From Acidimicrobiales bacterium (GTDB lineage Bacteria > Actinomycetota > Acidimicrobiia > Acidimicrobiales > SKKL01): a stretch of 64,000 bases of DNA. The position numbers and the translations under genes are program-made. Shown here piece by piece: positions 28,042-60,545 of this stretch. The DNA lies in NCBI GenBank assembly GCA_034521975.1, contig JAXHLR010000003.1, positions 62,001-126,000 on the forward strand. The letters are read 5' to 3'. Position 1 is the first letter of the stretch, and each line of letters begins with the position of its first letter. The notes below the pieces were generated by a model that saw only the letters and a program-made list of their open reading frames with translations, made no database searches and was not told the DNA's origin.

Positions 28042-28965
28042 TCAGACCGCGGTCTTCTGCTCGGAGTCGGCGTCGGCCTGACGCTTGGCGGCGAGGCGGG
28101 CCGCCACCCGGCCCGACTTCTCGATGTAGGCCAGCAGCTTGTCGCGGGCCGCCTCGGCCTCGGCGTCGAGCCCCTCGACGTGCTCGATGTCCCAGTGGCG
28201 CAGCACGACCGGGACGAGGATCTGCTCGTGGTGCGACACCAGGTCGTAGATGCCCTCCTTGGCGATGGCCTTGGAGTGCTCGGCGAAGCCGGGGATGCCG
28301 GTGCCGGGCATGGCGAAGTTGGTGACCTCGTGGGCGAGCGCCTTCATCACCGTGCTCGGGTCGAGCTCGAACGCGGCGCTGGTGATGTCGCGGTAGAACA
28401 GGAAGTGGAAGTTCTCGTCGGAGGCGACCTTGGCCATGATGTCGTAGCCGGCCTTGTCGGTCATGACCTTGCCGGTGTTGCGGTGCGAGATGCGGGTGGC
28501 CAGCTCCTGGAGCGTGACGTAGGTGAAGCCGTGGGCCGCGGTGGGAGGATGGGGCACCTGACCGGTCGACATCTGGGCCATGCGGCCGTCCTCGAGCCAC
28601 ACCGGGTCGATGGCCCTGGTGACGTGGAGGTAGTCGCGGATGACCATGGCGTGGCGACCCTCTTCGGCGGTCCAGCGCCGGGTCCACTCGCCCCACGCAC
28701 CACCACCGTGGCCGTACATCCGGTCGATGTCGCGGAAGTAGTAGGGCAGGTTGTCCTCGGTGAGCAGGTTCACATAGAGCGCGGCGCGGATCGTCGGGGG
28801 GATCTCGGCGTCGTTCGGGTCCCACTCGTAGTCGGGCTCGAAGTCCCGTCCACGGCTCCACGGGACCAGGGTGTGGGGGTACCACATCTTGGTGGAGCTG
28901 AGGTGGCGCTCGAGCAACCGCTCGGCCACGGGTTCGAGCTCGGCCAGCAGGGCGGTGTCATCCAT
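28042..28965 (-). CDS. Acyl-[acyl-carrier-protein] desaturase (DesA type)
   Basis: This 307-residue soluble di-iron enzyme introduces a double bond into ACP-bound fatty acids using O2 and reduced ferredoxin. The iron-ligand motifs of the ferritin-like fold are visible: E70 in L-T-E-D-N-L-P-Y-Y, E102 and H105 in E-E-G-R-H-A, E154 with H161 in L-Q-E-L-A-T-R-I-S-H, and D-E-N-F-H at 183-187. Mycobacterial DesA1/DesA2 are close family examples. ATG 28965 was chosen because a much longer reading would run through the SDR gene. A perfect 26-bp palindrome sits 6 nt upstream, implying tight transcriptional control. Confidence 0.9.
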   Translation of the reverse strand: MDDTALLAELEPVAERLLERHLSSTKMWYPHTLVPWSRGRDFEPDYEWDPNDAEIPPTIRAALYVNLLTEDNLPYYFRDIDRMYGHGGGAWGEWTRRWTAEEGRHAMVIRDYLHVTRAIDPVWLEDGRMAQMSTGQVPHPPTAAHGFTYVTLQELATRISHRNTGKVMTDKAGYDIMAKVASDENFHFLFYRDITSAAFELDPSTVMKALAHEVTNFAMPGTGIPGFAEHSKAIAKEGIYDLVSHHEQILVPVVLRHWDIEHVEGLDAEAEAARDKLLAYIEKSGRVAARLAAKRQADADSEQKTAV

Positions 28966-28971
28966 GCCCAC

Positions 28972-28997
28972 CACCCTACCTACCGGTAGGTAGGGTG
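28972..28997 (-). promoter_or_regulatory. Perfect 26-bp palindromic operator overlapping the desaturase promoter
   Basis: CACCCTACCTACC is followed directly by its exact reverse complement, with no spacer, centred between 28984 and 28985. On the minus strand the arm nearest the gene contains TAGGGT, which ends 7 nt before ATG 28965 and fits a leaderless -10. A dimeric regulator bound here would block RNA polymerase. The symmetry is typical of TetR-family operators, but the cognate regulator is not in the immediate neighbourhood. Confidence 0.75.
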
Positions 28998-29039
28998 AAA
29001 AGCCTCCGGCCCACGAATCGACCCGACGATGGCGCGCGA

Positions 29040-29885
29040 CTACGGATCCACCCGACCATCGACCGCGTCGTCGCCGTGCAGCAGGCGACCGATCGGGTCC
29101 CAGTCGGGTCCGGCCCGCAGGTGATGGCCGCCGTCGACCGGCAGCGACACGCCGGTCACCCAGGTCGCCTCGGGGCCACAGAGGTAGCGGACCGCGGCGG
29201 CGACATCGTCGACCACACCGGTGCGACTGATCGGCATCTGCGCCAGATAGTCCTGGTGCACCTCGTCGACGCCGAACAGGCCCGCCGCCAGGTCGGTGTC
29301 GACCAGGCCGGGGCAGACCGAGTTGACCCGCACGTTGGCCCGACCGAGCTCGTCGGCCGCGGTGCGCACCAGCATGTCCACGCCCGCCTTCGACACGTTG
29401 TAGGGCGCGCCCATGCGGTGCGTCCGCAACCCGGCGATCGACGAGATGGCACACATCGACCCGCCGCCGCTGCGGGCGATGGCCGCCCCCGCGTGCTTGA
29501 ACGTGAGGAACGTGCCGGTGAGGTTGGTGTCGAGGATGCGCTGCCAGTCGGCCAGCGGGGTGGCGATCACCGGAGCAACACCGCCGATGCCCGCAGCGGC
29601 AACCGCCAGGTGCAGCCCATCCTCGGCCTCGGCCGCGGCGGCGACCGAGTCGCGCACGGCATCCTCGTCGGCCACGTCGGCCACCACGTGCTGGACCTGG
29701 GCGCCCTCGGGTGCGTCGGCGCGCAACGACTCGACCGCATCGACCAGCTTCGCCTCGGTACGTCCCACGAGGGTCACCGACGCGCCATCGCGCAGCAGCG
29801 CCCTGGCACACGCCAACCCGATGCCGCTCCCCCCGCCGGTGACGTAGGCGCCCGTCCCCGACAGGGCCAGACCGTTGCTCGACAT
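29040..29885 (-). CDS. Short-chain dehydrogenase/reductase
   Basis: This 281-residue NAD(P)-dependent oxidoreductase has the cofactor motif T-G-G-G-S-G-I-G-L at 16-24, A-A-A-G-I-G in place of N-A-G, and the active-site Y-N-V-S-K with upstream Ser in A-I-S-S-I-A-G. The late C-P-G-L-V-D-T-D segment is usual for the family. The substrate is unknown. ATG 29885 fits the N-terminus of the family; longer versions run into a repeat region. The first 19 codons and the upstream 96 nt are duplicated at 41.56-41.71 kb. The desaturase gene follows on the same strand behind its own operator. Confidence 0.85.
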   Translation of the reverse strand: MSSNGLALSGTGAYVTGGGSGIGLACARALLRDGASVTLVGRTEAKLVDAVESLRADAPEGAQVQHVVADVADEDAVRDSVAAAAEAEDGLHLAVAAAGIGGVAPVIATPLADWQRILDTNLTGTFLTFKHAGAAIARSGGGSMCAISSIAGLRTHRMGAPYNVSKAGVDMLVRTAADELGRANVRVNSVCPGLVDTDLAAGLFGVDEVHQDYLAQMPISRTGVVDDVAAAVRYLCGPEATWVTGVSLPVDGGHHLRAGPDWDPIGRLLHGDDAVDGRVDP

Positions 29886-30040: not shown

Positions 30041-30107
30041 CAGCGCTCACGGGGTCGTCGTGAGCATGATGGCCGCCCCCGATGGACCCGATGATTGCGC
30101 CCAGCGG

Positions 30108-30113
30108 TATCAT
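30108..30113 (+). promoter_or_regulatory. Probable -10 element of the GntR regulator gene
   Basis: TATCAT lies 8 nt before GTG 30122 without a ribosome-binding site. The following CATCGG is shared with the two divergent promoters of the island (GCATCGGC near 31360 and ACATCGGC near 38055), so it could be part of an operator for this regulator. The start codon itself lies in the palindrome GTGACGTCAC. Confidence 0.4.
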
Positions 30114-30121
30114 CGGACACA

Positions 30122-30805
30122 GTGACGTCACCTACGCAAGACACGGAGACTGCGAGTTGCGCCCACCTGGTGAGTGGCGAACTCCGGCGCATGATCGTCA
30201 CGGGAGAGATCGAACCGGGTCAGCGCATCCTCGCCAAAGACGTCGCGTCCCGCTTCGGCGTCTCGCACATCCCCGTGCGTGAAGCCATGCGCCGTCTCGA
30301 AGGTGAGGGATTGCTGCGCTACCACTCCCAGCGGGGCGCCGTGGCGACCGACATCTCGCTCGCCGAGCTTGCCGAGATCTACGACCTGCGCCGGTTCCTC
30401 GAGTGCCGCGCCGCCGCCGCCGCAGTCAGCAGTTTCGACGACGAGTACGTCGGGCGGGTCCGAGATGCGCTCGCCGAGCTGGAGCGGACGCGGGCGGAGG
30501 ACCCACACGGCGAAGCGTTCTTTGATGCGCACCACAGCTTCCACTGGCTGCTGATCGCACCGGGCTGCTCAGCACTCGTCGAGCGGATGCTGCGTCACCT
30601 CTGGAGCGCAGCCGATCGATACGTCCACCTCGGGCTGGAACAGGCACCGACCCCCGGTGCCGGGCGCCACCACCGAGAGCTGTACAGGGCCGCCAGCGAC
30701 CGCGACGCCGACCGCCTGGTGCAGTTGGTCGACGATCACCTCCACAGAACCGAGGCGTCCGTGCTGGCACACCTCCAGCACCTCGCCCCGCCGGCCGAGG
30801 CGTGA
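30122..30805 (+). CDS. GntR-family transcriptional regulator with FCD ligand domain
   Basis: This 227-residue regulator has an N-terminal winged helix (about 15-80, with I-P-V-R-E-A-M-R-R-L-E-G-E-G-L-L as recognition region) and a helical FCD domain (about 90-220) whose metal-binding His/Asp residues appear in D-A-H-H-S-F-H and H-H-R-E-L-Y. FCD regulators usually sense small carboxylic acids and repress catabolic genes next to them. It is the first gene of the island and therefore the best candidate for its control. I chose GTG 30122 over TTG 30095 because the probable -10 hexamer ends 8 nt before it. It converges with the VOC gene 3 nt away. Confidence 0.85.
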   Translation: MTSPTQDTETASCAHLVSGELRRMIVTGEIEPGQRILAKDVASRFGVSHIPVREAMRRLEGEGLLRYHSQRGAVATDISLAELAEIYDLRRFLECRAAAAAVSSFDDEYVGRVRDALAELERTRAEDPHGEAFFDAHHSFHWLLIAPGCSALVERMLRHLWSAADRYVHLGLEQAPTPGAGRHHRELYRAASDRDADRLVQLVDDHLHRTEASVLAHLQHLAPPAEA

Positions 30806-59603: not shown

Positions 59604-60545
59604 CTACAGGTAGCCGTTCTCCTCGAGCCACTCGGCGGCCACCTCGTCGGCGTCGCGCAGCTCGATCTCGAACTGGCGGTTCAGCTCGGTGAGCTGCGCG
59701 GTGTCGAGGTCGGCCGACACCGAGTTCACCAGCGTGGCCATGTCGTCGCCGTAGGTGTCGACCAGCTCCTCGGTCAGCACCGGGATGATGTTGTCGGCGT
59801 TGATCAGACCCTCGTCGTCCTCGAGGACGACCCAGCCCTCCTCGGCGATCTGGGGGTTGGTCGAGAACAGGATGGCCACGTCGATCTCGCCGCCCGCGAG
59901 TGCCTCCACGGTGAGCGGACCGCCACCGTCGAGGGACACGAACCCGTCCTCGAGGTCGACGCCGTAGACGTCGCGCAGACCGGGGATGCAGAACGGGTTC
60001 TCGGGGCAGTCCGGGGGACCGCCGAGGACCAGATCCTCGGTGAGGTCGCTGACCGACGACAGATCGTGCTCCTCCGCGGTCTCCTGGGTGACCACGAACG
60101 AGTTGGAGTCGACCGCCGGTGACGCCTCGAGCGCGACGAGGCCCTCATCCTCGAGGTAGCCGCGCAACAGCTCTGCGGTCTCCTCGACGTCGCTGGTCGC
60201 CTCGCCCGCCCCCTCGTTGAGGAACTCGAGCGCCGACGCCGCGTACTCGGCGGTGAAGTTGATGTCACCGCTCTCGAACGATGCGAACACGATCTCGCGG
60301 AAGCCACCCAACGCCTGGTAGTCGACGGGGTAGCCCGCCGCATCCAGGGCCTGGCCGTAGACCTGGGCGAGGACCTCGCTCTCGGCGAAGTCCTGGGCGC
60401 CGAGCACGATCGTGGGCCCGTCGGGTACCTCGACGTCGTCGGCCGGACCCGCGTCGCCGTCGTCGTTGCCGCAGGCCGCCGCCACCAGGGCGAGCAGCCC
60501 GAGGAGCGCGATCAGCAGCCTCCAGGTTCTGTGGGTGGTGCGCAT
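59604..60545 (-). CDS. OpuCC-type substrate-binding lipoprotein (glycine betaine/choline family)
   Basis: The 313-residue lipoprotein has a signal peptide with lipobox V-A-A-A-C (C25), followed by the type-II binding fold: V-L-G-A-Q-D-F-A-E-S-E-V-L near residue 46 and D-I-N-F-T-A-E-Y. The family binds glycine betaine, choline or carnitine for osmoprotection. AAGGAAGG stands 6 nt before ATG 60545. It is the last component of a four-gene importer; the permease genes are upstream on the same strand. Confidence 0.88.
   Translation of the reverse strand: MRTTHRTWRLLIALLGLLALVAAACGNDDGDAGPADDVEVPDGPTIVLGAQDFAESEVLAQVYGQALDAAGYPVDYQALGGFREIVFASFESGDINFTAEYAASALEFLNEGAGEATSDVEETAELLRGYLEDEGLVALEASPAVDSNSFVVTQETAEEHDLSSVSDLTEDLVLGGPPDCPENPFCIPGLRDVYGVDLEDGFVSLDGGGPLTVEALAGGEIDVAILFSTNPQIAEEGWVVLEDDEGLINADNIIPVLTEELVDTYGDDMATLVNSVSADLDTAQLTELNRQFEIELRDADEVAAEWLEENGYL

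Follow-up and report, generated by a model that had tools for sequence, protein, structure and literature searches.

The window analysed here, i.e., the whole 64-kb stretch of DNA, carries on the minus strand at 28042–28965 a gene for a soluble acyl-ACP desaturase, desA (307 aa; PF03405, E 3e-64), whose MDD start is common to the relatives L008 and L009. The gene upstream of desA (29040–29885, minus strand) is co-directional and encodes an SDR-family dehydrogenase, and between the two lies a perfect 26-bp palindrome with zero spacer, CACCCTACCTACCGGTAGGTAGGGTG, at 28972–28997 (no strand assigned). The order SDR gene, operator and desA is retained in the same-genus genome L008. The palindrome is the longest perfect zero-spacer one in the window, where the runner-up measures 18 bp. 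About 0.006 palindromes of at least 26 bp are expected by chance per 64 kb from the base composition (70% GC), and none arose in 100 windows simulated with a second-order Markov model; this is in agreement with the preliminary description, which had reported a perfect spacer-free palindrome at this position and had considered a chance origin improbable. A perfect 18-bp palindrome, GTCGTCCTCGAGGACGAC, is found at 59814–59831, and about 0.8 palindromes of such length are expected per window by chance. In relatives, an ECF-sigma-factor-like gene is located near desA (L008:1–531 and L009:974–1447), where the window has a GntR/FCD regulator.

The palindrome overlaps a putative -10 element, TAGGGT (28973–28978, minus strand), of the inferred desA promoter, and the desA ATG (28965) follows 7 nt past the end of this hexamer, read from 28978 to 28973. 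The desA transcript is probably leaderless. A weak -35-like hexamer, TTTTCA (28996–29001, minus strand), lies 17 nt upstream of the -10 element and is assigned from T/A enrichment at that distance in aligned promoters. Scanning the desA upstream region with the standard sigma-70 consensus gave no promoter, and the -10 call is consequently based on conservation across relatives. Of the earlier proposal that the palindrome lies over a leaderless -10 element of the desaturase gene, the overlap with TAGGGT and the 7-nt distance to the ATG hold, whereas the sigma-70 scan lends no support and the -10 element itself is taken from conservation.

Alignment of 29 promoters defines the conserved palindrome as CCTACCKACCGGTMGGTAGG. 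The flanking C/G pair at positions -1/+16 is present in 29/29 promoters and positions -2/+17 are kept in 25/29 and 27/29, respectively; symmetry further out is not conserved. By these comparative data, the conserved portion is shorter than 26 bp and comprises either a 16-bp core at 28977–28992 (TACCTACCGGTAGGTA, written TACCKACCGGTMGGTA) or 20 bp at 28975–28994 (CCTACCTACCGGTAGGTAGG, no strand assigned), the latter reading CCTACC...GGTAGG. The preliminary description, which took all 26 bp as the operator, thus over-read its extent, 16–20 bp being conserved across relatives; the outer bases are symmetric in the window copy because the -10 element is TAGGGT, the mirror of CCCTA. In the alignment, the -10 element begins at the last two core bases, reads TAGGCT or TAGGGT in 23/29 promoters and has its final T in 26/29; a weak T-rich -35 element is seen at 17-nt spacing, and the first ATG or GTG stands 10–13 nt past the core in most of the promoters. 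A palindromic site that overlaps the target promoter in this manner has the size (~14–30 bp) and position of a TetR-type operator.

The preliminary description had expected the operator to recur in the genome, and a search of the window's own genome with the 16-mer, allowing three mismatches or fewer, returned two exact sites, one with one mismatch and two with three mismatches. With the degenerate form, TACCKACNNGTMGGTA, three exact sites and none with one mismatch were found. At two mismatches, the degenerate form gave 17 sites against 13 in a reversed control, i.e., near noise, and these were not accepted as operators, since their count is close to the control and most are without the promoter layout. 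The three strong sites are each located 11–12 nt ahead of an ATG. One is the site before desA (28972–28997; PF03405); the other two, which bear out the expectation of further matches before lipid-type genes, precede a membrane fatty-acid desaturase unrelated to DesA (C9:125145; PF00487) and an NMO/FabK-like flavoprotein (C5:171646; PF03060). At all three sites, TAGG(C/G)T is followed after 7–8 nt by ATG, a layout that is expected of a leaderless promoter. The NMO site is seen only in the window's genome and is absent before NMO in G001 and G002, and NMO was accordingly rejected as a conserved target.

Two other genomes of the family keep the desA site, G003 of the same genus and G002 of a sister genus, so that its presence in close relatives, on which the earlier operator assignment hinged, was found. 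The membrane-desaturase site is kept in G001, G002 and G003. Searched across the class (296 genomes), the core gave 38 sites compared with one for the reversed control. Among the sites whose surroundings were fetched, 24 are located before desA, 8 before the membrane desaturase and 9 adjoin a TetR gene. Further genes behind the site encode another PF00487 desaturase type, an acyl-CoA synthetase, a 3-hydroxyacyl-CoA dehydrogenase, PlsC-like acyltransferases and HlyIII proteins. The third desaturase type (GYHRYFxHRS, PF00487) has the site in 11/17 cases in genomes that carry the TetR orthologue described below. A scan of 84,980 species for the core followed by the -10 element and ATG gave 28 matches, ~26 of which are Acidimicrobiia or unplaced Actinomycetota metagenome-assembled genomes (MAGs).

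Genes for HlyIII/PAQR-family membrane proteins stand directly behind the operator at L100:1645–2316, at L116:6132–6809 and in L247, and genes for PlsC-like acyltransferases at L095:2894–3718 and L108:6935–7741. HlyIII was rejected as a core target, since only 1/30 HlyIII genes in the sampled genomes with the TetR orthologue has the site, and its association is sporadic.

In nine genomes found by the motif alone, the site lies 23–39 nt upstream of the start codon of a TetR gene. The nine encoded proteins form one orthologue group with 52–97% mutual identity, and ten more orthologues, found by a TetR search made without the motif, have an upstream site at three mismatches or fewer. A profile of the nine proteins detects one strong copy in each of the four family genomes, including that of the window, where the single orthologue is encoded on another contig (G000:C9:46376–46969; 313 bits, with the next paralogue at 129). 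This C9 protein contains PF00440 (E 3e-15) and PF17938 (E 1e-9) domains with a TetR_N helix-turn-helix, and its predicted structure (pLDDT 88.5) has ten helices and the typical TetR fold with an all-helical C-terminal domain. The closest fold to the model is that of RutR; PfmR, EthR, KstR2 and FasR appear lower in the list. By eye, the genes downstream of the C9 TetR gene look like an NDP-forming acyl-CoA synthetase.

An orthologue of this TetR is present in 76/296 genomes of the class, and it co-occurs with the site: 30/33 genomes with the site have the orthologue, compared with 46/263 genomes without the site (Fisher p 4e-17, related genomes counted). In the remaining three site genomes (G152, G155 and G228) no orthologue was detected; in G152, the site precedes a membrane desaturase. 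In a set of 60 desA upstream regions taken irrespective of the motif, with a site defined by three mismatches or fewer, a site was present in 27/36 genomes with the orthologue and 0/24 without it (p 1e-9, related genomes counted). The same pattern is seen within families. Among the f19 genomes, G223 and G274 combine the TetR gene with perfect sites, and G266, which is without the TetR gene, has a decayed site with four mismatches; in f10, G113 has both TetR gene and site, and G117 neither. A desA site is missing from some genomes that have the TetR gene, among them several small ones of family f2.

The site hence co-occurs with, and is present upstream of, one TetR gene, as is typical of TetR-type operators, but the window's own family is without this autoregulatory site: no operator was found upstream of the C9 TetR gene or of its counterparts in the family, and the regulator link in the window's genome is for this reason built on orthology and co-occurrence. 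Judged from sequence, the preliminary suggestion of TetR as the likely class agrees with a single orthologue group whose occurrence goes with that of the site and whose genes follow it in many relatives. The statement that no TetR is encoded nearby was also correct, none being found within the 64-kb window, and the further idea of an operator unlinked to its regulator and belonging to a genome-wide unsaturation regulon gains support from the additional sites, the desA sites in relatives and the location of the TetR gene on C9. The palindrome followed by the -10 element is also found directly before TetR genes of different sequence at L094:1046 and L096:6403, one of the two being in an Oleiphilaceae MAG. 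More than one TetR clade is thus associated with the palindrome, and other TetR proteins may use this type of site.

Of the operators with measured binding, the closest belongs to PfmR (TTHB023; structure 3vpr), a TetR regulator of fatty-acid genes in Thermus thermophilus, which binds the native sites CCTACCGACCGGTCGG and ACTACCGACCGTTCGG with KD values of 0.3–0.6 nM and whose sites are located 7–14 nt before fatty-acid gene starts and before its own gene (PMC7022988). The native sites CCTACCGACCGGTCGG and ACTACCGACCGTTCGGTAAG, the latter pieced together from two overlapping entries, match TACCKACCGGTMGGTA over the shared bases at 0–1 mismatch, and the core conforms to the TACCGACCG.TCGGTA type of PfmR operator. 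Both proteins have the TetR fold, however, the candidate regulator is not a PfmR orthologue: PfmR is 24% identical to the C9 TetR, with TM scores of 0.61–0.74, and is outscored by RutR in profile and fold searches. Furthermore, PfmR targets are acyl-CoA and fatty-acid degradation and synthesis genes, not desaturases. Given the match between the operator and that of such a distant TetR protein, lipid control appears to make recurrent use of the TACCNACCGGTNGGTA site type. The site of TTHA0973 (PaaR), AACnAACGTTnGTT, differs from the operator and was set aside, and beyond PfmR, a literature search with the core sequences yielded no regulator recognised as relevant.

By fold, the closest solved structure is E. 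coli RutR, which gave the best matches (TM 0.81–0.86 by target length, 21–24% identity). The targets here are lipid genes rather than pyrimidine genes, and RutR identity was rejected on NCBIfam scores of 61–72 bits against a cut-off of 368 and 47–65 against 230 (orthologues L048 and L060). In function, a parallel is found in MadR (Rv0472c), a mycobacterial TetR-family repressor of desA1 and desA2 that leaves the genes adjoining madR unregulated (PMC8872791); it represses DesA-type desaturases and is encoded away from its targets. Its motif, TCTGTGxxxxxxxGT (PMC8872791), is unrelated to the palindrome and was not seen in the desA promoter, and on this comparison of binding motifs MadR was rejected as the regulator. 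The gammaproteobacterial DesT and FabR are also TetR regulators of desaturation, sensing saturated versus unsaturated acyl-CoA (PMC8872791); no close kinship in sequence with the candidate regulator was seen, neither being among its best 60 solved-structure or best 50 fold matches.

With the site, its conservation, promoter position and targets, as well as the co-occurrence and upstream presence of the TetR gene, computed here, we consider it quite probable that the C9 TetR is a repressor acting at the palindrome operator, with a small desaturase regulon transcribed from leaderless promoters. A dimer of the protein encoded at G000:C9:46376–46969 would bind TACCTACCGGTAGGTA and sit between the -35 and -10 elements of the desA promoter, overlapping the latter. 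RNA polymerase would then be blocked and desA repressed; occlusion is suggested by the location of the site inside the promoter. In the window's genome, the same regulator would also hold the membrane desaturase (C9:125145) and the NMO/FabK-like flavoenzyme (C5:171646), and could in this way set membrane-lipid unsaturation. By analogy with MadR, DesT and PfmR, the ligand is likely an acyl-CoA or acyl-ACP, and release would most likely be triggered by such a compound, probably with saturated chains.

Among the alternatives, a TetR-type operator that is bound in the window's genome by another of its 23 TetR-domain proteins fares best, although we regard it as improbable. The missing site upstream of the C9 TetR gene, the unrelated TetR genes of L094 and L096 that adjoin this palindrome and the three site genomes without the orthologue all fit such a binder, but desA sites occur only alongside the C9 orthologue (27/36 against 0/24), which is itself present in 30/33 site genomes, and no site at three mismatches or fewer adjoins any of the TetR loci of the window's genome. 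Somewhat less plausible still is activation of desA by the C9 TetR in the manner of FasR. Some TetR-family lipid regulators do activate, the mycobacterial FasR being so named (NCBIfam NF053731), but a site within a normal 17-nt spacer that overlaps the -10 element occupies a repressor position, and the site upstream of the regulator's own gene in relatives suggests negative feedback. It is very unlikely that the palindrome is bound by the neighbouring GntR/FCD regulator (30098–30802, plus strand): its gene is the nearest regulator gene, but L008 and L009 keep the desA site with an SDR and/or ECF-sigma-like gene upstream in place of GntR, and the site is also present at two unlinked loci and accompanies a TetR across genomes. 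Finally, a palindrome arisen by chance, or one folding in RNA, for example as a terminator of the SDR gene upstream, would suit a position between two co-directional genes, but is disfavoured to the point of being negligible by the conservation of the site, its fixed distance to the start codon in unrelated genes, the 0.006 expected occurrences per window, the zero loop, the missing T-tract and a terminator search that found none.

The site and its co-occurrence with one TetR group point to a switch for membrane-lipid unsaturation, not named before, in the Acidimicrobiia, an abundant, mostly uncultured class for which no description of such regulation was found in the literature searched. More tentatively, there might be a class-wide module in which a single unnamed TetR clade governs desaturases of three structurally distinct families, all from leaderless promoters, with a PAQR/HlyIII membrane protein and a PlsC-like acyltransferase added in some lineages. 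A link between PAQR proteins and desaturases is known in animals, and the module, if real, would amount to a membrane-fluidity regulon in bacteria in which a PAQR homologue is tied to desaturases. The analysis supplies a defined operator, the gene of a candidate regulator and a list of targets, and the operator motif can serve as a marker for tracing the regulon in metagenome-assembled genomes.

Two arrangements of repeated elements were also observed. At G113:C1:4499703–4499741, two operator copies lie 23 bp apart upstream of a single desA gene, and the window's own genome contains a short tandem repeat of AACCGACAAGTCSGG at L213 ~1485–1531 (G000:C4:279011).
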